Positions 6,476-27,814 of a stretch of DNA of 64,000 bases are shown one piece after another. The stretch is from Niabella agricola (GTDB lineage Bacteria > Bacteroidota > Bacteroidia > Chitinophagales > Chitinophagaceae): the NCBI RefSeq assembly GCF_021538615.1, contig NZ_JAJHIZ010000003.1, positions 3,410,001-3,474,000 of the forward strand. The letters are read 5' to 3'. Numbering within the stretch: position 1 is the first letter of the stretch; every line of letters begins with the position of its first letter. The notes beneath the pieces are model-generated. The model was not told where the DNA came from. It made no database searches and saw only the letters and a list, made by a program, of their open reading frames with translations. The position numbers were made by a program, and so were the translations under genes.

Positions 6476-6665
6476 AACCGTTGTTTGCTAGAAAGGGTAA
6501 ATAAGGGCCAAGATAATCCGAATTCTTTAATGCGACTGTTCTTTTCGACAAACAACCTCAAAATCCGCGGAGTTGCGGGTTTCATCCGCTGTACGGGCGG
6601 TTGGTAGATCTGCGCCAGTACGGATTGTAATTTATCGTAAACTTGCAGGAATTAATCACCCCTTA

Positions 6666-9947: not shown

Positions 9948-9988
9948 AAGAAACCGGCCTGGTCTTATATAACCGTGGCTGGTTTCTT
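9948..9988 (-). terminator. Hairpin overlapping the 3' end of the MFS gene
   Basis: AAGAAACCGGCC (9948-9959) and GGCTGGTTTCTT (9977-9988) form an 11-of-12-base stem. The MFS stop codon (9965-9967) lies in the loop. The complement strand continues TTTGTC, a weak U-run, so this may terminate the MFS transcript, though a role in mRNA stability is equally possible. Confidence 0.4.
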
Positions 9989-11194: not shown

Positions 11195-11313
11195 TCGATT
11201 GGTTTTTTCCGGTGGTAATCTGTTTTTAACCGGTTGTAAAAAAAGGGCAGCAAAGATGAATAAATTTTTCGGATCTTGCAGGCGAAACACCCCCCCCCTA
11301 CAAATAAGATTTT

Positions 11314-11350
11314 TTAATAAACTTTTTAATTTTTTTAAAAAGTTTATTAA
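11314..11350. promoter_or_regulatory. 37-bp perfect inverted repeat: probable ROK operator 1
   Basis: Arms TTAATAAACTTTTTAA (11314-11329) and TTAAAAAGTTTATTAA (11335-11350) are a perfect 16-base inverted repeat around TTTTT. It ends 23 bases before the ROK ATG. The second ROK gene has a matching element at nearly the same distance (17936-17972, 31 of 37 bases identical). ROK repressors of the NagC/Mlc type bind AT-rich inverted repeats, so autoregulation, possibly including the divergent MFS gene, is the natural reading. Confidence 0.65.
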
Positions 11351-11373
11351 GTTTGCGTTAATTAAATATAGCT

Positions 11374-12600
11374 ATGAAAAAACGGTTGCAATATAACCTA
11401 CTAGTTCTAAAGGAATTTTATTATGCCGGAGCTTTGTCTTGTGCGGAACTAAGTATACGTATCGGCAAGAGTATTCCGTTTACCGCCCAGTTGCTGGCGA
11501 ATTTAGTAGCGGAGGGCACGGTATTGGAAAATGGACTGGCGCCTTCTGCAGGCGGCCGGCGTCCTGCGATGTACTCCGTAAAACCCGATGCGATGTATAT
11601 CATTGCGGTGGCCATGGATCAGCTGGTTACGCGGGTGGTGATCATGGATTTTGAAAACAAACCGGTAATGCCACTTCTGCAGGAGGAGCTGAAGCTGGCA
11701 GACAACCCCGAAGCGCTGGATCATTTGAAAGCGCTGGTAGAGGACACCATTAAAAAAGCAAAGATTCCGAAAAAGAAAATCCTGGGTGTCGGGATCGGGA
11801 TGCCTGGCTTTATTGACCCTCAAAAAGGGGTGAATTATTCTTTTGTATCTATTGATGACAACAGTATTTCCGGCTATCTGCATAAAGAATTGGATATGCC
11901 CGTGTATATCGATAATGATTCCAGTATTATCGCGCTGGCGGAGCAACATTTTGGAGTGGCCGTTGGGGTTGGAAATGCAATGGTGGTGAATATCGGCTGG
12001 GGGATTGGGTTGGGATTAATCCTGAATCACGAACTGTACAGAGGCGGAAATGGCTTCGCGGGGGAATTCAGTCATATTCCATTCTTTGATAACAACAAAG
12101 TGTGCTCCTGTGGAAAAAAAGGTTGCCTGGAAACAGAAACTTCCCTAAAAGTAATTATTGAAAAAGCAGAACAGGGATTAAAGCGAAAGGACGCATCTGC
12201 GTTTCTGAAGAAAGATTTTCGTACCGGTTCTGTGGAAAAAGACTGGCAGGCGATCGTAAAAGCGGCACAGATGGGCGATGAATATGTGGTGAAGTTGCTT
12301 ACAGCTGCGGGTTACGATATCGGGCGCGGCGTAGCCGTACTGATCCACCTGTTTAACCCGGAACTGATTGTGCTGAGCGGGCGCGGAGCCCAGGCTGGCC
12401 GTATCTGGCAGGCGCCGGTACTTCAGGCCGTGAACGAACATTGCATTCCCCGGCTGGTAGGCAATACGCTGGTAAAAATGTCGACCCTGGGATATAAAGC
12501 CGAACTAATTGGTGCCGCGGCGCTGGTACTCGAAAATCTGTCAAAAACAAAAAAGATCCATCCTTCAAAAACAATCGCACCTCTGCCAAACACTGTATAA
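11374..12600 (+). CDS. ROK-family transcriptional repressor (module 1)
   Basis: 408 residues. Residues about 1-70 form a winged helix (SCAELSIRIGKSIPFTAQLLANLV, wing AGGRRPAMY). The rest is a ROK sugar-kinase-type fold with the sugar-binding IDNDSS and GEFSH motifs and the zinc motif C-S-C-G-x-x-G-C-L-E. The ATP-binding DxGxT motif of ROK kinases is replaced by AMDQLVTR, so this is a sugar-sensing repressor (NagC/XylR/Mlc type) rather than a kinase. It heads the operon ROK-SusC-SusD (26- and 12-base gaps) and is preceded by its own 37-bp palindrome. It is a paralogue of the ROK gene at 17994; the C-terminal part of the two is almost identical. Confidence 0.92.
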   Translation: MKKRLQYNLLVLKEFYYAGALSCAELSIRIGKSIPFTAQLLANLVAEGTVLENGLAPSAGGRRPAMYSVKPDAMYIIAVAMDQLVTRVVIMDFENKPVMPLLQEELKLADNPEALDHLKALVEDTIKKAKIPKKKILGVGIGMPGFIDPQKGVNYSFVSIDDNSISGYLHKELDMPVYIDNDSSIIALAEQHFGVAVGVGNAMVVNIGWGIGLGLILNHELYRGGNGFAGEFSHIPFFDNNKVCSCGKKGCLETETSLKVIIEKAEQGLKRKDASAFLKKDFRTGSVEKDWQAIVKAAQMGDEYVVKLLTAAGYDIGRGVAVLIHLFNPELIVLSGRGAQAGRIWQAPVLQAVNEHCIPRLVGNTLVKMSTLGYKAELIGAAALVLENLSKTKKIHPSKTIAPLPNTV

Positions 12601-12626
12601 TCAATTAAATTTTAAACACAGAGAAA

Positions 12627-15600
12627 ATGAAGAAGAAACATGTACTACTGGTACTCTATGCCCTTTTTTTGAGTACCGGAAGCTTATTGGCTCAGGTAAA
12701 GCGCGCCCTTACCGGAGTGATTACGGATGCAGATGGTAAGCCGGTTGCGGGGGCTACGATAACAGTTAAAGGCTCTGGCCAGGCCGTAGTTGCCAACGAC
12801 AACGGAGCATATACGCTCACGGTGGAGGATCATCCCGATCTGGAAATCAGCGCCGTGGGTTTTACCTCTCAAACCATAAAAGTAGGCGACGAAAATAACA
12901 TTTCTGTTCAGCTAAAACCGGTGGAGCGTAGTCTGGAAGGCGTGGTGGTAACGGCGCTGGGTATTAAAAGAGAGCGGAAATCGCTCGGATATGGTGTGCA
13001 GGAGGTGAAGGGAGAAACTCTTTCAGATGCCAGGGAGCCCAATGTTACTAACGCGCTTTCCGGAAGGGTAGCCGGATTGCAGGTGTCCCGCTCAAGCAAC
13101 GGACCGGCCGGATCTTCCCGTATTATTCTACGGGGTAATAATTCACTCACCGGTGATAACCAACCTTTAATCGTTGTTGATGGAGTACCCATTAGCAATA
13201 CTTCAGGAGCGGGTGTAGGAAAAGGTATTAACCAATCTGGGATTGTACCGGGAGCAACAAACGATTACTGGAATCCTTCCTTAGATATGGGGAACGGGCT
13301 TTCTGATATCAACCCGGAAGATATTGCTTCCATCAGCGTGTTAAAAGGTCCTTCCGCAGCTTCCTTATATGGTTCCCGTGCGGGTAATGGTGTCATATTA
13401 ATTACCACCAAAACAGGAAAGGCACAAAAAGGACTGGGAATAACTGTTTCTTCCACGATCGGGCTGGAAAGCATCTTTACAAATCCCGACCGACAAACCG
13501 CTTTTGGTCAGGGTTCTGCCGGGATCTATGATAAAACACAGGCGAACAGCTGGGGCCCCATGATTGAAGGGCAGAATGTGGAAAGCTGGAATGGTGCTAC
13601 CGTGCCGCTGAAATATTATGATAATATTCATAACTATTTCGGAACGGGTTTTAACTCCAATCAGAGTATTACATTTTCGCAGCAATTCAAGGGTACTTCT
13701 GTTTATACATCTTTAAACAGGTTGGATGACAAAAGTATGATACCGGGTGCCAAGCTGGGCCGGACGAATATCACCACAAGAGCCTTATCGAAATTTGGGA
13801 AAGACGATCGCTGGACACTGGACGCAAAAGTGCAATATATTAATTCTAAAGCAACCAACCGGCCGCAGGCAGGTAATAATGCCGGTAATATTTACCGGTT
13901 GATGTATGTACTGCCCGTATCGCTGAATATTGAAGATTTTAAAAAAAACAGGGACGAGAACGGGAAGATGATCTGGTACGTTCCCAACAGCAGTACCGTA
14001 AATCCCTACTGGGCTCAGGATCATTATTTGAATACAGATACCCGTAACCGGTATATAATGACCGGGTCGCTGAAGTATGAATTCACCGACTGGCTGAATG
14101 CTGAAGTAAAAGCGGGATCGGATATGTACAATGTGGTGGCAGAAGGAAAAACTTATTCGGGAAGCCCTCTTGTCAATCAGTATAGCATCGGTAAATATTC
14201 GTTTTCTGAAACCAATTACAGTACGTTGATTACCGCACGTAAAGACAATGTATTTGGTAAGCTTGGTGGTTTTGCAACGGTGGGTGGCAATCTGATGTCT
14301 CAAAATGTAAATTCGATTAAGACAAACTCCGGGGAACTGGTGGTGCCCGATCTTTTTTCTGTGAACAACGGCAAAAATCCGGCAACGGTTGATGAACTGT
14401 ACAGTAACAAAAAGATTAATTCCGTTTATGGATCGCTGCAGTTGAACTGGGATGGATACCTGTTCCTGGAAACTACCCTTCGGAATGACTGGTCTTCTGT
14501 ATTGAGCAAGGATCACCGTTCTTACCTGTATAGCTCTACCAATTTCTCCTTTGTGCTTACAGATATGATCCGTCAGAACGGCGGCGCATTGCCCAACTGG
14601 CTGAGCTACGGTAAGCTGCGCGCTTCTGCTGCACAGGCAGGGAATGATATGGCGCCTTACCAACTGTACAATACATATAATATTGGCAAGGATCCCAATG
14701 GGAATACAACGGCCGGAAGAAATGAAACCTTGTTCGATCCGAATGTTAGAAACGAGTTGTTAAAAACCTATGAACTGGGTGCGGAACTGCGGATGTTTAA
14801 CAGCCGGCTCGGCATCGATTTCTCCTGGTATAAAACCAATGCTACCAACCAGTTGATTGCGATTCCGCTGGACCCCTTGAGTGGCTACAAATACAAAATG
14901 ATCAATGCCGGCGATATTCAGAACAAGGGTATTGAGCTGATCGTGGATGGCAAAATCCTGGAAAACCCCAATGGCATGAACTGGACCACACAGGTGAATT
15001 TTTCAAACAATAAAAACGTGGTGAACGCCATTGCGCCGGGCATCGATTTATATTCCTTGGGTGGATATGATGCTGTGACCGTTTATGCAGAGGCCGGGCA
15101 GAAATATGGACAGATTTACGGATCCGCATTTCAGCGCGTAAACGACCCTAAAAGCGAGTACAATGGCCAGTTGCTACTGAGCGCTACCGGCTTACCGCAG
15201 GGAACAGATGCCCGCAGGCTGGCCAGTCAGCAACCGGATTTTCTGTTAGGAAATACCAACAGCTTCTCGTATAAAGGTGTAGGTCTGTCCTTCTTATTGG
15301 ATGGTCGTTTCGGCGGAAAAATCTTTTCAGCAACTCTGGCAAGCATGCAGCGTGCAGGAACGGCAGCTGCTACTGTTGTTAACGGAGGAAGAGATAATAT
15401 AACTGTGCCGGGGGTGATCAGCGATGGCAAAGGCGGTTATATTAAAAATACCAATGAGGTTACACCGCAACAATACTGGCAGGCCATTCAGAGCGGTAAT
15501 ATCGGTATTACCGAGGCCAATCTTTATGATGCGTCTAATATCCGCTTAAGGAACGTTCAGCTCAGCTATCAGCTACCGCAAAAGATGTTGGGTACGTCGT

Positions 15601-15776
15601 TCATACAAAGAGCACGGGTGGGCGTTTCCTGCAATAACGTATGGCTCATCAGCAGTCATATGCAGGGAATGGATCCGGAATCTGTATTTGCAATAGGCTC
15701 TAATGCCGTTGGATTTGAAAACGGAGCGCCGCCCACATCCCGGTATTACATGTTTAATGTAACCTTAAGTTTCTAA
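12627..15776 (+). CDS. SusC-like TonB-dependent outer-membrane transporter (module 1)
   Basis: 1049 residues. Signal peptide to about residue 22 (SLLAQ), a carboxypeptidase-regulatory-like domain (about 25-95, LTGVITDADGKPVAGATITV), a TonB-dependent plug (VVVTALGIKRERKSLGYG, then PLIVVDGVPIS and SAASLYGSRAGNGVILITTKTG) and a long beta-barrel ending in aromatic YMFNVTLSF. SusC proteins import oligosaccharides or peptides together with the SusD lid. Second gene of the ROK-SusC-SusD operon. Its signal and first domain are clearly related to the SusC of module 2, showing the modules share ancestry. Confidence 0.95.
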   Translation: MKKKHVLLVLYALFLSTGSLLAQVKRALTGVITDADGKPVAGATITVKGSGQAVVANDNGAYTLTVEDHPDLEISAVGFTSQTIKVGDENNISVQLKPVERSLEGVVVTALGIKRERKSLGYGVQEVKGETLSDAREPNVTNALSGRVAGLQVSRSSNGPAGSSRIILRGNNSLTGDNQPLIVVDGVPISNTSGAGVGKGINQSGIVPGATNDYWNPSLDMGNGLSDINPEDIASISVLKGPSAASLYGSRAGNGVILITTKTGKAQKGLGITVSSTIGLESIFTNPDRQTAFGQGSAGIYDKTQANSWGPMIEGQNVESWNGATVPLKYYDNIHNYFGTGFNSNQSITFSQQFKGTSVYTSLNRLDDKSMIPGAKLGRTNITTRALSKFGKDDRWTLDAKVQYINSKATNRPQAGNNAGNIYRLMYVLPVSLNIEDFKKNRDENGKMIWYVPNSSTVNPYWAQDHYLNTDTRNRYIMTGSLKYEFTDWLNAEVKAGSDMYNVVAEGKTYSGSPLVNQYSIGKYSFSETNYSTLITARKDNVFGKLGGFATVGGNLMSQNVNSIKTNSGELVVPDLFSVNNGKNPATVDELYSNKKINSVYGSLQLNWDGYLFLETTLRNDWSSVLSKDHRSYLYSSTNFSFVLTDMIRQNGGALPNWLSYGKLRASAAQAGNDMAPYQLYNTYNIGKDPNGNTTAGRNETLFDPNVRNELLKTYELGAELRMFNSRLGIDFSWYKTNATNQLIAIPLDPLSGYKYKMINAGDIQNKGIELIVDGKILENPNGMNWTTQVNFSNNKNVVNAIAPGIDLYSLGGYDAVTVYAEAGQKYGQIYGSAFQRVNDPKSEYNGQLLLSATGLPQGTDARRLASQQPDFLLGNTNSFSYKGVGLSFLLDGRFGGKIFSATLASMQRAGTAAATVVNGGRDNITVPGVISDGKGGYIKNTNEVTPQQYWQAIQSGNIGITEANLYDASNIRLRNVQLSYQLPQKMLGTSFIQRARVGVSCNNVWLISSHMQGMDPESVFAIGSNAVGFENGAPPTSRYYMFNVTLSF

Positions 15777-15788
15777 CTTTTAATTCTT

Positions 15789-17738
15789 ATGACCATGAAA
15801 TATATAGTAAAGAAGATGTCGGTATCGATATGCGCGGTATTGCTGCTCGCATCCTGTAAGAAATTTTCAGAAATAAATGTAAACCCCATCGCTGCAGATT
15901 CCTCGCAGGTGCAGGTAGAGTACTTTATCAATAATTCCATCATTGGTGCCCAAATGGATCCTGATGTGGCCGAGCGTTCCTTTGTATTGTACTGGAAACC
16001 GGCGGGCCGGCAGGCCAGTGACTGGGATGGCGGGGCTATAAACGTAGGGAGTTATAACGACGGATGGTCTACCAATTATTATAACCAGTTATCCGGTTGG
16101 TTAAACAATGCGAATACGGCCATCCAGATTGGCGAATCGAAGATAAAGGCGGGTACGGCCAAATCGTATACCTCCAATTTGATACAGGTTGCCCGTATAT
16201 GGCGCGCTTACCTGATGAGCGAGTTTTCGGATAATTTCGGTCCGATGCCTGTAGATGCATTTAAAGGAACCAACCCCCAGTTCAATGATGTAAAAACGGT
16301 ATATTATTATATGCTGGCTGAACTGAAAGATGCAGCATCCAAGCTGGATTTGTCCGTCAACTCTTCCGATATCGCCAAGCAGGACCCGGCATACGGATAT
16401 AATTACACGCAATGGAAGAAATATGCTACATCCATGCGGCTTCGGCTGGCCATGCGATTGTCTGAAGTGGATGCCGGAAAAGCAAAATCGGAATTCGAAG
16501 ACGCCTGTGCGGATGTAAATAATCTCATTACCTCGCTGGACGATAATTTCCAGGTACAGGAAAAAGACGGATGGTCGGCCCTAACGGGGGTAATGACCCG
16601 CTCCTGGGATACACAGCCGCTATCTGTGACCCTCCGCAACGTGTATCAGGGATTGGGAGGTATTAAATCTGCCGACCTGCTGGGCGCTGCTTTTCAGACT
16701 GCGATCAAACCGGCCAACTGGCTTGGGCAACGCTACCTGGATCATTTTCCTGTAAAGAATAATGACCCGGTTACCGGCTACTGGCTGGATGGTCTTCCTT
16801 ACTCGATAGATCCCCGCGGCTATAAGGCTTTCTCCATTCCGGGGGATGTAAACAATCCGAATTACCCAAAACAAAATGGCAATTTTGATGTAATCAGCAC
16901 ACGGAACCTGAAAACTTCCGCAGGTGGCAACCTGAAATCCGTTGATGCCAAATACACCTGGAATGCCCGTATCGACGGCGATCTGGGGGTAAAGGATCCG
17001 ATGAATGAATTGTTCAACTACGGAGGTACCATGCCCCGGATCAATATGCAGTTCAGAAACAGTACGCAAAAGCGGATCTTCTTTGCGGCCTGGGAAACCT
17101 ATTTCCTTTTAGCGGAGGCCAGCGTTCGGGGCTGGACAACCCCCGTAAATGGAAAGACCGCTTATGAAAAAGGCGTTACACTGAGCTTTAACTACTGGGA
17201 TAATGGGGTAGTATCGCCGGGTACGGCTGCCATATCTCCTTTTGTGACAGCTTATTTGGCATCTACAACTTATAATAACTGTGGTACATCCGTAAGCTGG
17301 GACCACACGACAGAGCCGCCGGCATCGCGTATGATGGATTTCCAGGATGGGTATACCGGTACATCCGGAAGCGTGGCAATTATATATCCAGCAAATACGC
17401 TTTACAAATCGGGGACGGTAAAGAACGACCTTTTAACAAAGATCATTACGCAGAAATTTATCGCACAATGTCCCTGGTTGCCCCTGGAAACCTGGAGTGA
17501 TCACCGACGGCTTGGGTTGCCGTTTTTTGAGAATCCAACCATCGAAAAGCCTATACCCACACTGCCGGCATTGACCGATGGTACTTATATGACTTCCAAT
17601 ATCAAGTTCTTCCCGCAACGTCTGAAATATCCTTCAGTGCTGTCAAATTCCAGTCCTGAGGGCTATAAACAGGCAAAAGCGGCCCTGGGGGGTGAAGATG
17701 CTGTACTTACCCCGCTTTGGTGGGCCAAACAACAATAA
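15789..17738 (+). CDS. SusD-like outer-membrane lipoprotein (module 1)
   Basis: 649 residues with the lipobox LLLASC (Cys23) and the SusD-like N-terminus FSEINVNPIA. It belongs to the SusD-like_2 (nutrient-binding) group: TPR-like helices with RIWRAYLMSEFSDNFGPMP and a late ETYFLLAEASVRGW helix. It forms the surface lid for the SusC encoded 12 bases upstream. A second ATG two codons in (15795) is an equally good start. The gene is followed by an intrinsic terminator at 17765, which ends the module 1 operon. Confidence 0.93.
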   Translation: MTMKYIVKKMSVSICAVLLLASCKKFSEINVNPIAADSSQVQVEYFINNSIIGAQMDPDVAERSFVLYWKPAGRQASDWDGGAINVGSYNDGWSTNYYNQLSGWLNNANTAIQIGESKIKAGTAKSYTSNLIQVARIWRAYLMSEFSDNFGPMPVDAFKGTNPQFNDVKTVYYYMLAELKDAASKLDLSVNSSDIAKQDPAYGYNYTQWKKYATSMRLRLAMRLSEVDAGKAKSEFEDACADVNNLITSLDDNFQVQEKDGWSALTGVMTRSWDTQPLSVTLRNVYQGLGGIKSADLLGAAFQTAIKPANWLGQRYLDHFPVKNNDPVTGYWLDGLPYSIDPRGYKAFSIPGDVNNPNYPKQNGNFDVISTRNLKTSAGGNLKSVDAKYTWNARIDGDLGVKDPMNELFNYGGTMPRINMQFRNSTQKRIFFAAWETYFLLAEASVRGWTTPVNGKTAYEKGVTLSFNYWDNGVVSPGTAAISPFVTAYLASTTYNNCGTSVSWDHTTEPPASRMMDFQDGYTGTSGSVAIIYPANTLYKSGTVKNDLLTKIITQKFIAQCPWLPLETWSDHRRLGLPFFENPTIEKPIPTLPALTDGTYMTSNIKFFPQRLKYPSVLSNSSPEGYKQAKAALGGEDAVLTPLWWAKQQ

Positions 17739-17764
17739 GCGATTCAGGACCGTTGCCTGATAGT

Positions 17765-17798
17765 AGCCGCCTCCGGTATGCCGGGGGCGGCTTTTTTT
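17765..17798 (+). terminator. Intrinsic terminator of ROK-SusC-SusD module 1
   Basis: AGCCGCCTCCGG and CCGGGGGCGGCT form a 12-bp GC-rich stem with one G-U pair around the loop TATG, followed by seven T residues. It lies 27 bases after the SusD stop and isolates module 1 from module 2. Confidence 0.92.
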
Positions 17799-17935
17799 AT
17801 GCGGGTGTCTGAAGTTGCTGGCTATCGGCAAAACCTCCGTTTCGACCGAAACAAGGGTTGAGGTGTTGTACCGGCGTATGATGAACGCAGGCGTAAGCTG
17901 ATAGATATATTTTTTTTGTAAAAAATAAAAAAATA

Positions 17936-17972
17936 TTAAAATACTTATTAATTATTTTAAAAAGTTCGTTAA
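17936..17972. promoter_or_regulatory. 37-bp imperfect inverted repeat: probable ROK operator 2
   Basis: TTAAAATACTTATTAA (17936-17951), spacer TTATT, TTAAAAAGTTCGTTAA (17957-17972). It aligns without gaps to the perfect palindrome before ROK 1 (31 of 37 bases), and ends 21 bases before the ROK 2 ATG. The symmetry is reduced compared with copy 1, mainly in the left arm. Confidence 0.6.
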
Positions 17973-17993
17973 TTTTGAATTAACGATTTATTC

Positions 17994-19208
17994 ATGCAAA
18001 AGCGATTGCTATATAAACATGCGATTTTCAGGGAGTTTTACTATGCAGGATCCTTGTCTTGTGCAGAATTGAGCTCCCGGATCGGCAAGAGTATTCCGCT
18101 CACTACCCAGATGCTCAATAATTTGATCGAGGAGGGGGTAGTAGAGGAAAATGGATTAGCCCCTTCAAACGGGGGGCGGCGCCCCGCAATGTATGCGGTA
18201 AAGCCAGATGCTATGTATTTGGTTGCGGTGGCCATGGATCAATTGATTACCCGGATCGCCATTGTTGATTTTCATAATAGGCCGGTAAGTGCTGTTGCAC
18301 AACATGAGTTGCCGTTGGCTAATAATCCCAACGCGCTGCAGCAGTTAAAAACCATCATTGAGCAGGCCATTAAAAAATCGAAAATTCCGAAGAAAAAAGT
18401 GCTGGGAGTGGGTATTGGAATGCCGGGGTTTATTGATGCGCTGCAGGGGATTAATTATTCGTTTTTTCCGAATGAAAGTAAGAGCATTGCGGGTTATCTG
18501 AGTCATGCATTGGGTGTGCCGGTTTACATCGATAATGATTCCAGTATTGTGGCGCTGGCGGAGCATCGTTTTGGAGCGGCTGCGGGAACGCGTAATACAA
18601 TGGTGGTGAACCTGGGCTGGGGCGTGGGATTGGGCCTGATTCTCAACAATCAGTTGTACCGCGGTGAAAACGGATTTGCGGGAGAGTTTAGCCATATTCC
18701 TTTCTTTAATAACAATAAGGTATGCTCCTGCGGGAAGAGAGGTTGTCTGGAAACCGAAACTTCATTAAAGGTGATTATTGAGAAGGCAGAGCAGGGATTG
18801 AAAAGAAAAAGTACGGCGGCTTTTTTAAAAAAAGACTTTCGCACCGGCTCTGTCGAGCAGGATTGGCAGGCGATTGTAAAAGCCGCACAGATGGGCGACG
18901 AGTATGTGGTGAAATTACTTACCGCTGCGGGTTATGACATCGGAAGGGGCGTGGCCGTACTGATTCACCTGTTTAACCCGGAACTAATTGTGCTAAGCGG
19001 GCGTGGTGCCCAGGCAGGCCGTATCTGGCAGGCCCCGGTGCTGCAGGCGGTGAACGAACACTGCATTCCCCGCCTGGTGGGCAACACGCTGGTCAAAATG
19101 TCAACCCTGGGGCATAAGGCGGAGTTAATCGGCGCTGCGGCATTGGTGTTAGAAAACCTGTCGAGGTCAAAAATAAAAGAAACAGCTAAAAAAGTTGTTT
19201 TGCAATAA
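17994..19208 (+). CDS. ROK-family transcriptional repressor (module 2)
   Basis: 404 residues, same architecture as the ROK at 11374: winged helix (SCAELSSRIGKSIPLTTQMLNNLI, wing NGGRRPAMY), ROK fold with IDNDSS, GEFSH and the C-S-C-G-x-x-G-C-L-E zinc motif, no ATP-binding DxGxT. The two proteins differ at many positions in the winged helix and first lobe, but from about residue 285 to 370 they are identical over roughly 84 residues, although the DNA there has many synonymous differences. The winged-helix recognition region is also well conserved, so the two repressors may cross-bind. Heads the operon with SusC (49-base gap) and SusD. Confidence 0.92.
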   Translation: MQKRLLYKHAIFREFYYAGSLSCAELSSRIGKSIPLTTQMLNNLIEEGVVEENGLAPSNGGRRPAMYAVKPDAMYLVAVAMDQLITRIAIVDFHNRPVSAVAQHELPLANNPNALQQLKTIIEQAIKKSKIPKKKVLGVGIGMPGFIDALQGINYSFFPNESKSIAGYLSHALGVPVYIDNDSSIVALAEHRFGAAAGTRNTMVVNLGWGVGLGLILNNQLYRGENGFAGEFSHIPFFNNNKVCSCGKRGCLETETSLKVIIEKAEQGLKRKSTAAFLKKDFRTGSVEQDWQAIVKAAQMGDEYVVKLLTAAGYDIGRGVAVLIHLFNPELIVLSGRGAQAGRIWQAPVLQAVNEHCIPRLVGNTLVKMSTLGHKAELIGAAALVLENLSRSKIKETAKKVVLQ

Positions 19209-19257
19209 TACCTATAAAATAAGCCAAACATTTTATAATTATTTAAATGAGAAAAAA

Positions 19258-22200
19258 ATGAAGAAGAAACATGTATTGTTTGTTTTCGTCGCTTTGCTGT
19301 TGGGCTATGGAAGCCTGCAGGCTCAGGTTAAGCGGACGATAACTGGCGTGATCACTGATGCGGAGGGAAAGCCTGTTCCAGGTGCCACGATAACGGTAAA
19401 GGGTCGCAGTCAGGCTACGGTTGCCAATGAAAAGGGAGAATATTCCATTAATGTGGAAGGTAGTCCTGAATTGGAGGTTAGCTCTGTTGGGTTCGCAACA
19501 AAGGTACTAAGGGTAACCGGGAATAATACGTTGTCAATAATATTAGCGGCCGATCAGGGCAGTTTGGAAGGTGTTGTTGTTACTGCACTTGGTGTAAAAC
19601 GGCAACAGCGTTCTTTGGGATATGCAACCTCAACTGTGTCTGCCGGGGATCTTGTAAAAACGGCACCTACAAATTTTGCAGCGGCATTATACGGAAAAGT
19701 ACCTGGGTTGCAGGTGTCTTCCGCTCCCGGAGGTTCCACAGCGGGTGTGGTGATGCAATTGAGAGGGTTAAACTCTATTAGCTATAGCTCTACCCCATTA
19801 ATCGTTCTTGATGGTATTCCAATCAGAGACGGCGGCTTCAATAGTGGTGATTATTGGGGAGATGGCCGTGTACGGGGAAATGGTCTGATTGATTTGAACC
19901 TGGAAGATATGGAAAGCGTTACGGTCCTTAAGGGCGCCGCTGCCGCTGCATTGTATGGTTCTGAAGGTAAAAACGGTGTTCTTTTGCTTACCTCAAAGAA
20001 AGCAAAAGGGAAAGGATTCTCGGTTGATTTTAATGCTACCTACTTCCAGGATCGGGTAGCCTACTTGCCACGTCTTCAAAATGTAAGAGGAGCTGGCTTC
20101 CCGGTTCCCTATGGTGTATATCAAAGCGATGCTGATGGGTTTGGAAGTTATACCCTGAATGGTACAAAGTATAGAACGAATGTTCAAGCTGGTTTGAACT
20201 TCGGGCCACTGTTCGATGGTAAGCCGATTCTTACATGGGACGGCCAGGTGCGGCCCTATTCGGCGCAGCCGGACCGGTATGCGAACTTATTTCAGAAAGG
20301 CCAGAATTCAACACAAAACATAGCCGTTAGCAGTGCAACGGATAAGGCAGACATTCGTTTGTCATTAACACATCAAAGATTTGAAGGTATAAGCAAGAAC
20401 TCAAAGGATGAAAAATTGAATGCCAATTTTAACAGCACGGTTCGATTCAGTAAGAACTATTCAATGGATTTGATGATCAATTACATCAATCAGAACGTTC
20501 ATAATCGTCCTTTTTTAGTTGATCGAATGGTAAATAATTTTACGGGTATGATGCCGGCATTTGATAATGGCGACTGGTATTTTAACAAGTATAGAACCAG
20601 CCTTGGTTATAAATATGTTACCGGTAGTAACCGAAGCCTGACCCCTGACGAAAACATTAAGATTCCCAACTACCGTACCGATATCCTGGATTATGTATGG
20701 AATCTTATGTCAAATAATGTAGATGAATACAATAACCGGTTAATATCGAGTATTACAAACACGTTGAAAATTACGAATGACCTTTCCTTGCGTGGAAAAA
20801 TAGCAACAGATCTTTCTTTTAACAGAACCTTGAATAAATCACTTTCTTCACAACCGATAGCTTATGGCCCGTCGGGCGGATATACACAATCTACATATAA
20901 TTATAATATCCTGTACGGCGATGTCTTACTGAATTACAATAAGCAAATTTCCGAAGACTTTAGTCTGTCGGCTACAGCGGGTTATACTGCAAGGGATGAA
21001 AAAGGCATGAACACCAGCGTGGGAACAAATGGTGGATTGGGCGTGGAAAATAAATTTGACCTGACCGCATCCTACAACACGCCCTATAATAGCAGCGGAA
21101 GTCAAACTTATTTAACAACAGATGCTTTTCTGGGCACTTTAAATTTTAACTACAAGAATTATGCTTTCCTGGAAGGTACAATACGAAGGGATAGAACATC
21201 TACCATGAATCCCCAAAATAATACATTTACGTATCCTGCTGTAAATGGTAGTCTTATTCTATCGGATATCTTCAAGCTGCCGCAGGTAATTAATTATGCT
21301 AAGCTGCGTGCTTCGTGGGGGGTAGTTGGTAGCTATCCCGCAGCCTACCTGGCCAACGTGGCTTATAATACTGGTAATCTTGGCGTGCAAACTTCAGGCG
21401 GTAACCCCGTGTTAACTACTTCCACCATTACAAATCCATACGGGAATGACAACATCAGACCTGAGAAAAAGAAAACTTTAGAGTTCGGTCTGGCCGTTGA
21501 AACATTCAATAAGCGGCTTAATTTTGATGTTTCGTACTATCATGATAAAGTATATGATCTTATCATAAACCTGACACTTCCTCAAAGTATGGGGGCTTCC
21601 ACTATTTTATCGAATGTGGCCGAACTTTCAAACAAAGGATTTGAGGCGAACATTAATGCAACGCCTATACAAACCAGAGATTTTCGATGGAATCTTACGT
21701 TAAACTACTTTACGAATACCAATAAAATCGTTAAACTGGCAAATGGCTCTAAAGAGCTGATTCACGCTGATAATGATGGAAACGCGTATCAGATAAAATC
21801 CGTAGTTGGTCAGCCCGTGGGTGATATCTATGTACACCCCACCCTGGTAAACGACAACGGTCAGGCAATTATTACTGACGATGGTTTATATCAACAGGAT
21901 CCCAACAAAATGGTGTCGGGAGGAAACAGCCAGGTAAAAGGTGCGGGTGGTATTCTGAACACATTTACCTATAAGAATTTTGCATTAACATTTAATGCGG
22001 ATTTCAAATACGGGGGGTATGTGATTCCAACCGGTTTGTTTTGGATGAATAGCCGTGGTATAACTGAAGAAAGCCTTAAGTACATGGATGCAGCTCACGG
22101 CGGACTTAGTTATTATTTGGATGCAGATGGAAAGGGCATTGCAACAACAGGTACATCCGGACCCAAAGGAGAGACGGTTTTGCATGATGGTATGCTGTTG

Positions 22201-22578
22201 AAGGGCGTTACAGCTGATGGCAAAGAGAATACGAATATTATATCCCAGGCATATTATTATTGGAATATTTATAATTGGGGAGGACCCCAGTATTCGCCGA
22301 GTGCGTTGTATAATTTATATGTACAAAAAAACAATTACATCAAAATGAGAGAGATATCACTTGCATACACCCTGCCTTCCAAGATTGCCTCAAAAGTTTG
22401 GGCACAGCGGGTGACGGTTTCTGTATTTGCAAGAAATCCATTCTACTTATACCGGACTATAAAGGATATGGACGCAGAGCAGCTAACTACAAGCAATGTG
22501 TGGTACAACAATCTTAACAACGCCGGAAGCCAGCCGTCTACCAGGACTTTTGGTGCAATGATTCGGGCAACATTTTAA
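19258..22578 (+). CDS. SusC-like TonB-dependent outer-membrane transporter (module 2)
   Basis: 1106 residues from the ATG at 19258. I prefer it to the in-frame ATG at 19195 (inside the end of the ROK gene) because it begins a signal peptide, KKKHVLFVFVALLLGYGSLQAQ, that matches SusC of module 1. Regulatory-like domain (TGVITDAEGKPVPGATITV), plug motifs (VVVTALGVKRQQRSLGYA, PLIVLDGIPI, AAAALYGSEGKNGVLLLTSKK) and a barrel ending in FGAMIRATF. The plug and barrel are strongly diverged from module 1, suggesting a different ligand. The coding sequence is visibly richer in A+T than module 1 and the GH3 gene. Confidence 0.95.
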   Translation: MKKKHVLFVFVALLLGYGSLQAQVKRTITGVITDAEGKPVPGATITVKGRSQATVANEKGEYSINVEGSPELEVSSVGFATKVLRVTGNNTLSIILAADQGSLEGVVVTALGVKRQQRSLGYATSTVSAGDLVKTAPTNFAAALYGKVPGLQVSSAPGGSTAGVVMQLRGLNSISYSSTPLIVLDGIPIRDGGFNSGDYWGDGRVRGNGLIDLNLEDMESVTVLKGAAAAALYGSEGKNGVLLLTSKKAKGKGFSVDFNATYFQDRVAYLPRLQNVRGAGFPVPYGVYQSDADGFGSYTLNGTKYRTNVQAGLNFGPLFDGKPILTWDGQVRPYSAQPDRYANLFQKGQNSTQNIAVSSATDKADIRLSLTHQRFEGISKNSKDEKLNANFNSTVRFSKNYSMDLMINYINQNVHNRPFLVDRMVNNFTGMMPAFDNGDWYFNKYRTSLGYKYVTGSNRSLTPDENIKIPNYRTDILDYVWNLMSNNVDEYNNRLISSITNTLKITNDLSLRGKIATDLSFNRTLNKSLSSQPIAYGPSGGYTQSTYNYNILYGDVLLNYNKQISEDFSLSATAGYTARDEKGMNTSVGTNGGLGVENKFDLTASYNTPYNSSGSQTYLTTDAFLGTLNFNYKNYAFLEGTIRRDRTSTMNPQNNTFTYPAVNGSLILSDIFKLPQVINYAKLRASWGVVGSYPAAYLANVAYNTGNLGVQTSGGNPVLTTSTITNPYGNDNIRPEKKKTLEFGLAVETFNKRLNFDVSYYHDKVYDLIINLTLPQSMGASTILSNVAELSNKGFEANINATPIQTRDFRWNLTLNYFTNTNKIVKLANGSKELIHADNDGNAYQIKSVVGQPVGDIYVHPTLVNDNGQAIITDDGLYQQDPNKMVSGGNSQVKGAGGILNTFTYKNFALTFNADFKYGGYVIPTGLFWMNSRGITEESLKYMDAAHGGLSYYLDADGKGIATTGTSGPKGETVLHDGMLLKGVTADGKENTNIISQAYYYWNIYNWGGPQYSPSALYNLYVQKNNYIKMREISLAYTLPSKIASKVWAQRVTVSVFARNPFYLYRTIKDMDAEQLTTSNVWYNNLNNAGSQPSTRTFGAMIRATF

Positions 22579-22597
22579 TACTGAAAAAGATACTAAT

Positions 22598-24169
22598 ATG
22601 AAAAAAATAATTTTTGCTACGGTTATTGTTGCTGTTACAGGAATAGTGTCCTGTACCAAACAGCAGTTCGCCGACCATTATATTAATCCTAAAACAGTAG
22701 GAACGACAACGATCGAAAAGCAATTTGCTGGTTTTATCGCAGCCGATCTCGACTATGTCATGTATAAATATTGGAATTATTTTGTTGTTCTTCAAAATAC
22801 GGCATTGCCCTGGTCGCAGGCTGTGGGCGTTAATAATATTCCTGCAAGATATGTGCCGGGTGCGGCAGCTGTATCAGACCGGTGGTCCAACTTTTATAAC
22901 TTTCTTGCGCAGTATAAAGAACTGCTGAACGTATATAACAAGTCTACGGATGAAGAAAAAGCAGCAAAGAAAATTTATGTTACTTTGGCAACGATTCATT
23001 TTTACGATCAATCTCAGAAAGTTGTAGATCTGCACGGTGATATTCCCTGGTCAGCCGCCGGCCTTTTAAGCACGAATAAGGGAGATGTGGGCGCTTCCTA
23101 TGCGAAGTATGACAAAGCCAGTGATATTTATACGAAAATGCTTGATGATTTAAAAGGATTTGCCGAAGAACTGAATACCGTTTCATTATCAGCGCCCGTA
23201 GCAGCAACGTTAAAATCACAGGATTTTATTAATCAGGGCGATATTACTTTGTGGAAGAAGTATTGCAATTCTTTGAGGATAAAGTTGCTGATGCGGGCTT
23301 CTGGTGTTGCTGCATTCCAGGCGAGGGCAAATACAGAAATTGCGTCCATTTTAAATAATCCCTCAAGTTATCCTGTTGTGACTTCCAATGATGATAAAAT
23401 AGCGATTGAAGTTTATAATGCCTCCTCCGGGGTCAATAATGGTACAGCTACAGGTCAGAGTGCAGCCTTTTATACGGGTCTTATTGGTTGGGGGGGTGGA
23501 GACATTCCATCAAAGCAATTAATTGATTATATGAAGGCGAACACTGACCCGAGATTATCGCTGATGTTTCAACCGGGTGCTAATGCCGGAGGTAATTATG
23601 CGGGCCTGGATCCAAGCTTACCTTCCAATACTCAGGCTGATTTAGCAAATGGAGGAACATTGTCACGTTATAATTTTACCAACATTTCGCAGAATATTAA
23701 TATCCCCGGGATGTTAATCAACGCTGCTGAAACCTATTTTTATATTTCGGAATATTATCTGAACAATGGTAATGATGCGGCAGCAAAAACAGCCTATGAA
23801 AATGGCGTTAAAATTTCTATAGACTATTATGCTTTCTTAAGCGGAGGAACAGTTAGTAATGTTTTAAAAACAGCATATTTGGCATCACCAGGCGTAATCT
23901 GGTTGGGTGCCAATGCAGCTAAATTAAATCTTATTGCAACGCAAAAATGGATCAATTATAGCGTACTGCAGCCGTTAGAAAACTGGGCCGAAGTAAGGCG
24001 TTTAAAACTACCCGCTTTAACATTCACAGCTGATAATACGAATGCACAAAAAATGCCACCCAGTCGCTGGCAATATCCGACAAATGAGCAAACATATAAT
24101 GCAGAAAATTATGCAGCAGTTAAAGACAACGATAAGATCACTACTAAAATCTTTTGGGACGTTAAGTAA
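22598..24169 (+). CDS. SusD-like outer-membrane lipoprotein (module 2)
   Basis: 523 residues with lipobox GIVSC (Cys19). SusD-like_2 type: NPKTVGTTTIEKQFAGFIAADL at the N-terminus, then HFYDQSQKVVDLHGDIPWS and a late AAETYFYISEYYLNNG helix. It starts 19 bases after its SusC and is shorter than the module 1 partner (649), consistent with a different ligand site. Like its SusC it is A+T-rich. The stop is followed 21 bases later by an intrinsic terminator, so the GH3 gene is partly insulated. Confidence 0.93.
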   Translation: MKKIIFATVIVAVTGIVSCTKQQFADHYINPKTVGTTTIEKQFAGFIAADLDYVMYKYWNYFVVLQNTALPWSQAVGVNNIPARYVPGAAAVSDRWSNFYNFLAQYKELLNVYNKSTDEEKAAKKIYVTLATIHFYDQSQKVVDLHGDIPWSAAGLLSTNKGDVGASYAKYDKASDIYTKMLDDLKGFAEELNTVSLSAPVAATLKSQDFINQGDITLWKKYCNSLRIKLLMRASGVAAFQARANTEIASILNNPSSYPVVTSNDDKIAIEVYNASSGVNNGTATGQSAAFYTGLIGWGGGDIPSKQLIDYMKANTDPRLSLMFQPGANAGGNYAGLDPSLPSNTQADLANGGTLSRYNFTNISQNINIPGMLINAAETYFYISEYYLNNGNDAAAKTAYENGVKISIDYYAFLSGGTVSNVLKTAYLASPGVIWLGANAAKLNLIATQKWINYSVLQPLENWAEVRRLKLPALTFTADNTNAQKMPPSRWQYPTNEQTYNAENYAAVKDNDKITTKIFWDVK

Positions 24170-24190
24170 GAAATAATATCCGTACTTTTC

Positions 24191-24228
24191 AGGCTACTTC
24201 AGCATCTGTTGGAGTGGCCTTTTTTTTA
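24191..24228 (+). terminator. Intrinsic terminator/attenuator between SusD 2 and GH3
   Basis: AGGCTACTTCA (24191-24201) pairs with TGGAGTGGCCT (24210-24220), using two G-U pairs, around an 8-base loop, followed by eight T residues. The GH3 ATG is only 12 bases after the T-run. The GH3 gene must therefore be expressed by read-through or from a promoter within the 3' part of the SusD gene. Confidence 0.8.
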
Positions 24229-24239
24229 ATAAATATGCT

Positions 24240-26909
24240 ATGCGCAAATCCATTTATATAATACTTGCGATCTGTTTTATGTATTCATCATTCTGTGGAA
24301 AAGCCCAACAGCTATTGCCCTACAAAAATTCCCGCTTGCCCATCGAAACCCGCGTACAGGACCTGCTTTCCCGCATGTCACCAGAGGAAAAGTTCTGGCA
24401 GCTATTTATGATACCGGGCGATTTGGACAAGGCTGCGCCGGATCAATATAAGAACGGCTTGTTTGGCTTCCAGGTGAGCGCGGCTACAACCGGTGCCGGT
24501 GAAGCGGCCCAGCAAATGCTGAGTTATAACCAGAGTAAGGAGAATGCGTTGACGCTGGCAAAGAAGATCAACGGCATCCAGCGCTATTTTATTGAAAATA
24601 CCCGGTTGGGGATCCCGTTATTGTTTTTTGATGAAGCACTGCATGGACTGGTGCGTAGCGACGCCACTTCCTTTCCCCAGTCCATCGGTTTGGCTGCCAC
24701 TTTTGATACGGCAATAATGCGCCAGGTAGCCAATGCCATCGCGGATGAAACAAAGCAAAGAGGGATCCGCCAGATCCTTACTCCGGTAGTGAACCTGGCC
24801 ACGGACGTGCGTTGGGGAAGAACGGAGGAAACCTATGGGGAAGATCCTTTTCTGACATCAGCAATGGGAGTTGTTTTTGTGAGCGCTTTTGAGAAAAAAA
24901 ATATCGTTACCACACCGAAACATTTTGTAGCGAATGTGGGCGATGGAGGACGCGATAGCTACCCCATTCACTGGAGTGAACGCTTTTTGGAGGAAACCCA
25001 TTTTTTGCCGTTTAAGGCTTGTTTTCAAAAAGGCGGAAGCCGGTCGGTTATGACAGCTTATAACTCATTGGATGGAACAGCCTGCACCGCAAACTCCTGG
25101 CTATTGAATACAAAACTGAAAAAAGAATGGGGCTTTAATGGTTTTGTAATTTCGGATGCGGGGGCAACCGGCGGGGCGCTGGTGCTGCATCATACGGCAA
25201 AAGATTACCCGGAGTCCGGTGTCCAGGCGATCAATGGCGGACTGGATGTGATTTTTCAGACCGACTACCAGCACTACAAATTATTTGCACCGCATTTTTA
25301 TGACGGGAAGATCAACCAGGAGCGGATCGATGATGCCGTGGCGCGGGTGCTGCGGGCAAAGTTTGAACTGGGGCTTTTTGAAACGCCCTATGTGGATGAA
25401 AAGAAGGCAGCCATAAAATATGACCATAAACCGGTGGCAAAACAGGCAGCGCTTGAATCGTTGGTGTTGCTGAAAAATGAAGACCGGATGCTTCCCTTTG
25501 CAAAAACGATCCGGAAGCTGGCGGTTATTGGCACCGATGCTGCCGAAGCCCGGCTGGGAGGATACAGCGGCCCGGGTACAAATAAGGTTTCTATACTGGA
25601 AGGGCTAAAAGAAAAGAACGGAGCCACCACCGAAATCCTGTATGCTCCCGGCCCGGGAAGGAGCGATAAAGCCTGGAAGATCATTCCGGCAGACCTGCTT
25701 TGGCATGCCGAAGGAACGGTTTTAAAAAGAGGGTTACGATTCAGTGTGTTTGACCGTATCGATTTTTCGGGTACGCCGGTTGATACAGGTACTGACCAGG
25801 CGATTGATAAGCTCTGGACGCTCTCCGGTCCATCCTCAAAGCTGCAGCAGGATTTTTATGCGGTTCGTTGGGAAGGTATGATCCGGCCGGATGCTTCAGG
25901 CGATTATCGGCTGGGATTGAGTGGTAACGATGGTTTTCGTCTGTATCTTGATGATGAGCTGGTCATTGACAACTGGAAAAAAGAGTCTTTCAGAACTGCG
26001 CTTGTCCCGGTTTCTTTTGTGAAAGGAAAAACGTATAAGCTAAAAGTAGAGTATTATGAACCGGTGGGTAATGGAAAACTGCAACTGATCTTCCAGGGTG
26101 CGGATGATCGGGCGGCCCGGATCCGCGAAGCCGTGGCTGTTGCTGAAAAGGCAGACGCGGTGGTAATTGCTGCGGGTATCGAAGAGGGAGAGTTTAGAGA
26201 TCGCGCCCTGTTATCGCTTCCCGGCATGCAGGAGGAACTGATACAACGGGTATCAAAAACAGGAAAGCCGGTTGTGGTACTGCTGGTGGGCGGAAGTGCT
26301 ATAACAATGAGCAATTGGATCTGCGGTGTAAAGTCCGTTCTGCAAGCCTGGTATCCGGGTGAGGAAGGCGGTCGTGCGGTTGCGGATGTATTGATGGGCG
26401 ACTATAATCCGGCCGGACGCCTACCCATTACCTTTCCGTTACATGAAGCCCAGCTGCCCCTGGTATACAATCATAAGCCGACGGGTCGAGGAGATGATTA
26501 TGAGAACCTGTCTGGCCGGCCGTTATTTCCCTTTGGTTTTGGGCTTAGTTATACAACATTTGAGTACAGCAATATCCGGCTCGATAAACCGGTCATTGGA
26601 ATTGCAGATTCGGTACGGGTACATTTTACCATAAAGAATACCGGAACAATGGCCGGCGATGAAGTGCCGCAGCTTTATATCCGTGATGATGAATCGTCGC
26701 TTGCACAGCCGGTGCTCGCCTTAAAAGGATTGCAACGGGTGCTGCTGAAGCCCGGAGATACAAAGGAACTTGATTTCCTGATCACACCGGAATTATTGCA
26801 GCTGCTGAACCAGCAGATGAAATGGGTGGTTGAGCCCGGGAGTTTTAGTATTATGATTGGCGCCTCTTCCGCGGACATCCGGTTGCGGACGACGTTGATA
26901 GTAGAGTAA
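24240..26909 (+). CDS. Glycoside hydrolase family 3 enzyme with PA14 insert
   Basis: 889 residues, signal peptide to about residue 23 (FCGKAQQ), so periplasmic or exported. GH3 N-terminal TIM-barrel (about 35-330) with the nucleophile Asp306 in GFVISDAGA; KHF at 227-229 is the usual substrate-binding pair region. The GH3 C-terminal domain is interrupted by a PA14 domain (about 486-620, YAVRWEGMIRP...GDYRLGLSGNDGFRLYLDD), then continues (VVIAAGIEEGEF) into a C-terminal FN3-like domain (GDEVPQLYIRD). This layout is typical of beta-glucosidases/xylosidases that trim oligosaccharides. It is the only glycosidase of the locus and suggests a beta-linked glycan as the inducer and ligand of the two SusCD pairs; the exact sugar cannot be read. 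Confidence 0.93.
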   Translation: MRKSIYIILAICFMYSSFCGKAQQLLPYKNSRLPIETRVQDLLSRMSPEEKFWQLFMIPGDLDKAAPDQYKNGLFGFQVSAATTGAGEAAQQMLSYNQSKENALTLAKKINGIQRYFIENTRLGIPLLFFDEALHGLVRSDATSFPQSIGLAATFDTAIMRQVANAIADETKQRGIRQILTPVVNLATDVRWGRTEETYGEDPFLTSAMGVVFVSAFEKKNIVTTPKHFVANVGDGGRDSYPIHWSERFLEETHFLPFKACFQKGGSRSVMTAYNSLDGTACTANSWLLNTKLKKEWGFNGFVISDAGATGGALVLHHTAKDYPESGVQAINGGLDVIFQTDYQHYKLFAPHFYDGKINQERIDDAVARVLRAKFELGLFETPYVDEKKAAIKYDHKPVAKQAALESLVLLKNEDRMLPFAKTIRKLAVIGTDAAEARLGGYSGPGTNKVSILEGLKEKNGATTEILYAPGPGRSDKAWKIIPADLLWHAEGTVLKRGLRFSVFDRIDFSGTPVDTGTDQAIDKLWTLSGPSSKLQQDFYAVRWEGMIRPDASGDYRLGLSGNDGFRLYLDDELVIDNWKKESFRTALVPVSFVKGKTYKLKVEYYEPVGNGKLQLIFQGADDRAARIREAVAVAEKADAVVIAAGIEEGEFRDRALLSLPGMQEELIQRVSKTGKPVVVLLVGGSAITMSNWICGVKSVLQAWYPGEEGGRAVADVLMGDYNPAGRLPITFPLHEAQLPLVYNHKPTGRGDDYENLSGRPLFPFGFGLSYTTFEYSNIRLDKPVIGIADSVRVHFTIKNTGTMAGDEVPQLYIRDDESSLAQPVLALKGLQRVLLKPGDTKELDFLITPELLQLLNQQMKWVVEPGSFSIMIGASSADIRLRTTLIVE

Positions 26910-26975
26910 AGAAAGCAGGCCCAGTGATATAAAGGCGCCCGGATTATCCTTTTGTCTGAAAAAGAACAGAAAGGT

Positions 26976-27464
26976 TTACGCTATTTCTTCAAACACACCC
27001 GTTTGCCGGTTCTTACGTACTTTGCCGGCTTTGAAATAGCGCCCGTTCATGGCTACGTACACACCATGAGGGAGCGATTGTGCAAAGGCAATAGCGCTGC
27101 CCAGGTTGAATAATCCGTCGGAGCTACCAAACTTAATGGGGATCATAGCCCCGGTGAGCACAATCGTTTTGTTTTTGATCCGTTCTGCTAACAGTTGTGC
27201 GGTTACAGACATGGTGTCCGTTCCATGAGTGATCACGATCTGTTCTTCATCGGCCTGCTCGCATTGGTAAGCGATCAGTTCCCGGTCTTCATCGGTCATT
27301 TCCAGGCTGTCTACCATCATCAGGGTCCGGATTTCAACCGGTACGGTGTTGCGTCCTTTTTCAAGTAACTCCTGCAAATGCGTGTCTTTAAAGTAAAGCT
27401 CACCATTCAACATGTTGTATTCTTTATCAAACGTTCCACCGGTTATAAAGATGCGTATTGCCAT
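26976..27464 (-). CDS. Short asparaginase-domain protein
   Basis: 162 residues from the ATG at 27464, chosen because the conserved strand IRIFITGGTFD starts there and a -7 box lies directly upstream. It has the asparaginase N-terminal-domain landmarks: GGTFD with the nucleophile Thr, and ITHGTDTM with the second catalytic Thr-Asp pair, then KTIVLTGAMIP. It lacks the C-terminal domain of full asparaginases (about 330 residues). Stand-alone proteins of this kind are widespread; their substrate is not established. It converges with the GH3 gene and has no operon partner. Confidence 0.85.
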   Translation of the reverse strand: MAIRIFITGGTFDKEYNMLNGELYFKDTHLQELLEKGRNTVPVEIRTLMMVDSLEMTDEDRELIAYQCEQADEEQIVITHGTDTMSVTAQLLAERIKNKTIVLTGAMIPIKFGSSDGLFNLGSAIAFAQSLPHGVYVAMNGRYFKAGKVRKNRQTGVFEEIA

Positions 27465-27814
27465 AGTACAAAAGTATCGCATTCAGGTCAGAATACAGGC
27501 GCGGCCCTGGTTTGCAATAAGAACACCTGATCGTGTTTTTTTAATTTAAATGATTGGGATAGGGTTTTATTAGTGGTTTAACGGTGTTCCAAAGTCAAAC
27601 TTGCAAAATGTAAAACGCATTGGTTAAATAAATTGATTTTCTGAAATCAGTTGCCGGTAATCGGTTTTCAGCCCTCGGCTTCTGGCATCAGCGGGTTAGT
27701 GGTTGTTAATTACCCAGCGGGGCCCTTGCTGCCGGCAGCAAAAGGATCGGACATCCTGCATCGGGCTCTGGACGCGCCCCCAACCTGAAACCTTGAACTG
27801 AAACCTGCAACTGC
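27465..27814. other. Intergenic region (350 bases)
   Basis: Between the asparaginase-domain start and the antiporter stop, both on the complement strand. The only recognisable items are the TACTTTTG box next to the asparaginase ATG and, at 27785-27812, a degenerate run of CTGAAACC/CTTGAA-like words. No gene or structured RNA is visible. Confidence 0.5.
27469..27476 (-). promoter_or_regulatory. Candidate -7 box (TACTTTTG) adjoining the start codon
   Basis: On the complement strand TACTTTTG, a perfect TAnnTTTG, ends 4 bases before the ATG at 27464. If used, transcription would start at or next to the start codon, giving a leaderless mRNA. No TTTG is visible 19-20 bases upstream, so support is partial. 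Confidence 0.4.

Follow-up and report, generated by a model that had tools for sequence, protein, structure and literature searches.

NanR-nanOU of Bacteroides is, by analogy, the known precedent for the switch that we propose here for two rok-susC-susD modules of Niabella agricola. In the parts of PMC3969230 that were accessible, a putative helix-turn-helix repressor gene, nanR, lies 5' of the nan operon of B. fragilis, its deletion makes the aldolase constitutive, the nan genes including nanOU rise with sialic acid, and the mechanism of NanR is called unclear. In B. thetaiotaomicron, the accessible parts of PMC3878776 list NanR (BT0433) as a ROK family member with a predicted regulon and predict that ManR controls an operon with SusC/SusD and mannosidases. 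The two NanR proteins are equated here by name, and their likeness to the ROK proteins studied below is one of description, not of alignment. A literature search did not find rok-susC-susD triplets or ROK control of SusC/SusD (SusCD); it covered mainly titles and the beginnings of abstracts, and subscription papers lay mostly outside it. The window analysed is a stretch of 64,000 nucleotides (contig NZ_JAJHIZ010000003.1, positions 3,410,001 to 3,474,000), in which the modules occupy 11374-24169.

As the best explanation, we consider it probable that each module is an autoregulated one-component repressor switch with exchangeable SusCD. The gene order, the palindromes, their conservation together with the rok-before-susC link, and the replacement of SusCD are read from sequence; we infer binding, repression, the operon transcript, the ligand and recombination as the route of exchange. 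A ROK dimer would bind a palindrome upstream of its own gene, beside and upstream of the -7 box, and keep down a single rok-susC-susD transcript. The incoming glycan would deliver a sugar, or a derivative of one, to the cytoplasm and so to the ROK pocket, and the sugar-bound repressor would release the DNA, giving more SusCD and more ROK. ROK, operator and susC 5' end would form the constant part, and SusC barrel and SusD the variable part, exchanged via recombination inside the susC 5' end.

All genes of the locus lie on the + strand, and the order and orientation of the preliminary description, two tandem ROK-SusC-SusD sets and then a GH3 gene, were confirmed. Module 1 consists of ROK1 (11374-12600), a winged-helix and ROK repressor-type protein of 408 amino acids, SusC1 (12627-15776), a TonB-linked outer-membrane transporter (TIGR04056, 588 bits), and SusD1 (15789-17738), a SusD-like lipoprotein by Pfam. 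Module 2 consists of ROK2 (17994-19208, 404 amino acids), SusC2 (19258-22578; the mechanical open reading frame starts at a TTG at 19195) and SusD2 (22598-24169, SusD-like family by Pfam). Both SusCs carry Plug and CarboxypepD_reg domains (Pfam), and both modules have the adjacent susC-susD pair by which polysaccharide utilization loci are recognised. The intergenic gaps are short (ROK1-SusC1 26 base pairs (bp), SusC1-SusD1 12 bp, ROK2-SusC2 49 bp, SusC2-SusD2 19 bp), so each triplet would be read as a single transcript. The two modules would be separate transcription units because a terminator-like hairpin (17765-17792, + strand, 12 pairs and a T tail) and then the second operator follow module 1; as a class, such hairpins are not enriched (18 found, 18.3 expected from shuffles).

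The link between regulator and transporter recurs in relatives. A search with ROK2 gave some match in 135 of 147 family genomes, and the 83 listed matches of at least 300 bits, found in 52 genomes, define by this cut-off what we call the clade. Neighbourhoods were read for 65 of these 83, chosen before the neighbours were seen. SusC lies directly downstream on the same strand of 53 of the 65, which bears out the co-occurrence that the preliminary description had expected from a neighbourhood search; SusD comes next in 51 of the 53, one case stands at a contig end and one is masked by a spurious short open reading frame. The genome of the window itself carries a third rok-susC-susD triplet elsewhere (L046, C3:4881889). 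In 296 genomes of the phylum, matches of at least 300 bits occur in the own family f1 (G000, G004, G014, G022), in f2 of the same order (G302) and in f3 of the same class (G148, G223, G241, G264, G279, G354, G400); a matching Pedobacter record points to f3 as Sphingobacteriaceae-like. SusC is directly next in five of eight clade ROKs outside the family (L163, L164, L166-L171), and directly downstream of one (L180) of 18 more distant ROKs in L172-L189. In L055 (G109) and L056 (G009), the clade ROK follows SusC-SusD and precedes a series of genes, a GH3 among them, and has no site upstream, which is another layout of the clade regulator.

Both ROK proteins of the window carry the ROK domain PF00480 (146.8 and 155.1 bits, cut-off 22.9). 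The N-terminal winged helix exceeds the HTH_24 cut-off in ROK2 only, and the N-terminus is also matched by profile and by model; the profile matches to Listeria Lmo0178 and Escherichia coli Mlc are long and include it. The structural model (predicted local distance difference test (pLDDT) 88.8, predicted template modelling score (pTM) 0.88) finds its best fold matches in operator-bound Lmo0178 (5f7q) and Mlc (1z6r). All 46 aligned clade members have lost both glycines of the DxGGT motif and retain D82 and Q83; T86 is kept in 39, and W209 stands at the position of the T in glucokinase 2qm1. N181, D182, E231, H234, C244, C246, C251 and E255 are likewise invariant in all 46, in agreement with the earlier claim that the ATP-site motif is lost and the sugar and zinc residues are kept. 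The lost glycines, the kept site residues and the fold matches together strongly imply a repressor-type ROK rather than a kinase. Since E. coli Mlc also lacks the ATP-site motif and has the zinc-site residues in the same alignment, the pattern is a general trait of ROK repressors and not special to this locus.

Upstream of ROK1 lies a perfect 16-bp inverted repeat with a 5-bp spacer (putative operator 1, 11314-11350), whose first base, 11314, is where the preliminary description had begun the locus. Its putative core of 23 bp (11321-11343) reads ACTTTTTAA-TTTTT-TTAAAAAGT, and that of putative operator 2 (17943-17965) reads ACTTATTAA-TTATT-TTAAAAAGT. The Bacteroidota -7 box is TAnnTTTG. A -7-like box that fits it, TAAGTTTG, lies at 11348-11355 on the + strand, and module 2 has TAATTTTG at 17970-17977 (+) with an equal offset; in both modules the box begins 4 bp past the core, and the full arms of operator 1 extend into it. 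A scan for sigma-70 promoters gave 32 hits where 33.2 were expected and so was uninformative. The possibility that the palindromes are terminators or other hairpins was rejected: operator 1 lies between divergent genes, and operator 2 lies downstream of the hairpin at 17765-17792.

In the 6.26-Mb genome, exact matches to the core ACTTnTTAA-N5-TTAAnAAGT occur only upstream of the ROK genes of both modules. The half-site pattern also matches exactly only at both modules, with 53 sites at up to two mismatches against 43 for the control. The sequence is conserved as well: five genomes share an unbroken run of 22 invariant bases in operator 2, and operator 1 differs by a single base across three, with flanks that vary widely in each case. 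Among the 147 family genomes there are five exact palindromes, four of them within 50 bp upstream of a clade ROK: the two of the window, one in G114 (43 bp before its clade ROK) and one in G077 (35 bp). The fifth lies inside an open frame of G030.

For a statistical test, a 37-bp weight matrix was built by expectation-maximisation, with the 95% level of shuffles as the threshold. Under two-fold hold-out and with the own genome left out, 42 of the 61 upstream regions of clade ROKs reached it. For the other genes of these loci, scored with the matrix from all 61, the count was 19 of 559; by our reading of the list, these 19 comprise 10 divergent ROK neighbours, which share the ROK's upstream region as read from its opposite end, four SusCs behind a ROK and five others. 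When one locus was left out at a time, a site was present at 45 of the 53 clade ROKs that head a susC and at none of the 11 that do not (rough Fisher p 1e-7). For this count, L080_15840, which is followed by a second ROK and then susC, was placed in the heading group, and L102 was dropped for its too short upstream. A second site, above the 99% level, precedes susC in five of the 11 ROK-susC gaps longer than 150 bp (L050, L058, L072, L080, L091), so that the site is linked to susC as well as to ROK. At another place of the own genome (L045, C3:540000-556000), a distant ROK (230 bits) has in its vicinity a SusC and a divergent gene, which by eye resembles an MFS (major facilitator superfamily) sugar porter; with the operator matrix, the upstreams of these two score 14.7 and 13.8.

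Several observations weigh against the proposed switch. Twelve of the 65 clade ROKs in the family do not stand directly before susC, and three of the eight outside it (L164, L166, L167) are not followed by SusC. The matrix started from a consensus picked out by eye, and the hold-out removed the same locus only. The relatives are not independent, so that p-values are rough. Eight of the 53 susC-heading ROKs have no site above the threshold. A ROK inside an operon would in any case lack a promoter and a site of its own, which could account for some of the 0 of 11. Six of the 11 long gaps have no second site, including that of the third triplet of the own genome (456 bp). The reversed control pattern gives six sites in the 147 genomes against the five exact palindromes; thus, specificity rests on position and not on number. 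With up to three mismatches, the own genome has 66 sites against 101 for the reversed control, which is no enrichment. A large regulon drawn from such loose matches was therefore rejected, and only exact matches are informative.

The transporter pairs change under a nearly constant ROK. Between the relatives G433 and G434, identities are 98.0% for ROK1, 98.1% for SusC1, 97.4% for SusD1 and 97.5% for ROK2, and fall to 53.6% for SusC2 and 48.1% for SusD2; at the DNA level, identity is 85-96% through ROK2 to about the 50th susC codon and is then at background. Between G434 and G435 the break lies near susC codon 115. Against G433, the window stays similar across ROK2 as far as about 19502, and similarity returns at about 24342, within GH3; for the Niabella relatives G433, G434 and G436 together, it stops at about 19400-19502, inside SusC2. 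In five relatives, the SusCs that follow the last ROK share only 33-34% identity with SusC2 of the window. Five Niabella records (L190-L194) carry a ROK2 that is 73-86% identical. Between the last ROK and the conserved GH3 (19258-24169 in the window; Niabella L226-L232) the number of stacked SusCD pairs varies from one to at least three; at this one chromosomal place, even close species have different pairs, and the break falls in the susC 5' end.

These data bear on the preliminary description's version of the model, in which each ROK recognises the saccharide imported by its own SusCD, a possibility that we regard as doubtful. ROK1 is kept with SusC1 and SusD1 in three genomes at 92-98% identity, and the two window ROKs, 77% identical to each other, serve different transporters. 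Where two triplets have ROKs that are at least 0.80 identical (15 pairs), five pairs keep similar SusC barrels (0.66-0.98, including G433-G436 at 0.86), which speaks for this version and against free exchange. In the other 10 pairs, the barrels are only 0.30-0.53 identical; nine of these 10 fall among five Niabella-type ROK2 genes. Moreover, the pocket and zinc residues are invariant in all 46 clade members, and the window ROK2 carries at residues ~250-395 a stretch of ROK1 type that the ROK2-type genes of G433-G436 lack; this stretch marks a partial gene conversion involving both tandem copies. With SusCD pairs that differ beneath a ROK that hardly changes, sensing of the imported sugar itself is not supported. 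Because SusCD is swapped under a constant switch, the ligand would more likely be a common breakdown sugar than a transporter-specific oligosaccharide.

Over 58 triplets, ROK distance correlates with that of the SusC N-terminus (rho 0.31, p 0.003) and not with that of the barrel (0.035, p 0.34) or SusD (-0.06, p 0.88), and barrel and SusD distances correlate with each other (0.49, p 0.003). As proof of decoupling, this distance-matrix (Mantel) test was rejected: FecR and SusC are uncorrelated as well (14 pairs of the own genome, rho -0.002), so that a lack of correlation is not special by itself nor specific against transporter-specific sensing, and the close-pair comparisons carry the claim.

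An improbable alternative is that SusCD stands mainly under other control, or is constitutive, and that ROK tunes only itself. A LytTR response regulator and a LytS-type histidine kinase do lie in divergent orientation at 5747-7712, upstream of a 584-amino-acid repeat protein and 3.6 kb upstream of the locus. They are set apart from it by two genes, one of them a divergent MFS gene, and only 26 and 49 bp separate the ROK stops from the susC starts, with no operator-like site between them in the window scan; the extra sites before susC in five relatives also argue for ROK control of susC. As noted in the preliminary description, FecR, SusR-type and hybrid two-component genes were absent among the large open reading frames scanned at 9965-27482, and none of 26 FecR matches falls in the window. 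STN is the SusC domain that goes with FecR signalling. It is absent from SusC1 and SusC2 and, within the first 320 residues at most, from all 53 ROK-linked SusCs, against its presence in 13 of 15 FecR-linked SusCs of the own genome. Of the 56 SusCs listed there (56 of 161 candidates were scored), 15 have a FecR gene no more than 2.5 kb upstream.

It is quite improbable that the palindrome is the site of another regulator, with ROK acting elsewhere or without a role at the locus. L045, which has a distant ROK only, carries above-threshold sites upstream of three genes, as such a regulator might predict. Site presence follows the rok-before-susC order (45/53 vs 0/11), the dyad symmetry suits a dimeric winged-helix repressor, and the closest fold is a ROK repressor on its operator, all of which favours ROK itself. 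Some ROK-type regulators can activate, and ROK could act as an activator from the same palindrome, which is very improbable here since the core ends 4 bp before the -7-like box and the operator 1 arms enter it, a position that suits polymerase blocking.

The GH3 gene (24240-26909, + strand; Pfam Glyco_hydro_3 N and C, PA14 and Fn3-like domains, below every NCBIfam cut-off listed) also ends the locus on the right in G433, G434 and G436, and the stretches of G435 and G437 stop short of it. A second terminator-like hairpin (24191-24220, +, 13 pairs and a T tail) separates SusD2 from GH3 and ends 19 bp short of the GH3 start, so the gene is adjacent to, and not clearly part of, module 2. With no high-scoring operator site near GH3 in the window scan either, its inclusion in the ROK control unit is not clearly supported. 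As a partial terminator, this hairpin might keep enzyme expression below that of SusCD. The locus is flanked by the divergent MFS gene on the left and an asparaginase-domain gene on the right. Downstream of the triplets in relatives, enzymes among the 25 commonest of 78 families include GH29 (9), GH92 (5), GH3 (2) and others; naming the glycan from them was rejected as they are too mixed (70 of 88 candidate proteins scanned). In sum, one-component control as first described gains from the linkage, the palindromes, the second sites and the absence of STN, which lend no clear support to direct sensing or to the inclusion of GH3.

More broadly, we tentatively suggest, as a plausible extension, that this ROK clade in Chitinophagaceae- and Sphingobacteriaceae-type genomes is a further one-component class of SusCD control, a fixed expression site with recombined SusC barrel and SusD. 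If so, it would stand beside hybrid two-component, SusR-type and extracytoplasmic function (ECF) sigma/anti-sigma control, and one general sugar signal would drive ever-changing glycan receptors behind a fixed ROK, operator and susC 5' end. With FecR close upstream of so few of the listed SusCs, the question arises of what controls the others. A defined regulator clade, a readable putative operator and the lack of STN as a discriminator make transporter regulation directly testable, and the layout of constant switch and variable transporter bears on how new glycan uptake can be gained without rebuilding control.

Compared with known systems, the window modules resemble NanR-nanOU, as far as its accessible sources describe it, in that a repressor is tied to genes including a SusCD-like pair (NanOU). 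Unlike NanR, which belongs to sialic-acid catabolism, the window ROK heads a rok-susC-susD unit, present in tandem and with exchangeable SusCD, and its clade appears at 300 bits only in the own family, f2 and f3 among the phylum genomes searched. No nan catabolic genes were present among the large open reading frames scanned at the locus, nor downstream of the relatives' triplets among the 25 commonest families. ManR is likewise a one-component regulator with a SusC/SusD operon, a link that is predicted in the accessible part of its source. It belongs to the GntR family rather than to ROK, and that prediction covers one regulon. E. coli Mlc and Listeria Lmo0178 are among the best sequence and fold matches and share the winged helix, the ROK domain and the zinc motif; the window ROK is ~23% identical to them, and neither is known to have SusCD targets. 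Mlc is released by a phosphotransferase system (PTS) protein.

In ECF sigma/FecR control, the regulator gene also lies directly before susC, and the difference is in STN, present in 13/15 FecR-linked and 0/53 ROK-linked SusCs. Phase-variable SusC/SusD loci exist in Bacteroides. No invertase was seen among the genes scanned at the locus, and no search aimed at invertases was made. As in those phase-variable loci, SusC/SusD variants alternate at one place; unlike them, the changes here are between species, and the break lies in the 5' part of susC.

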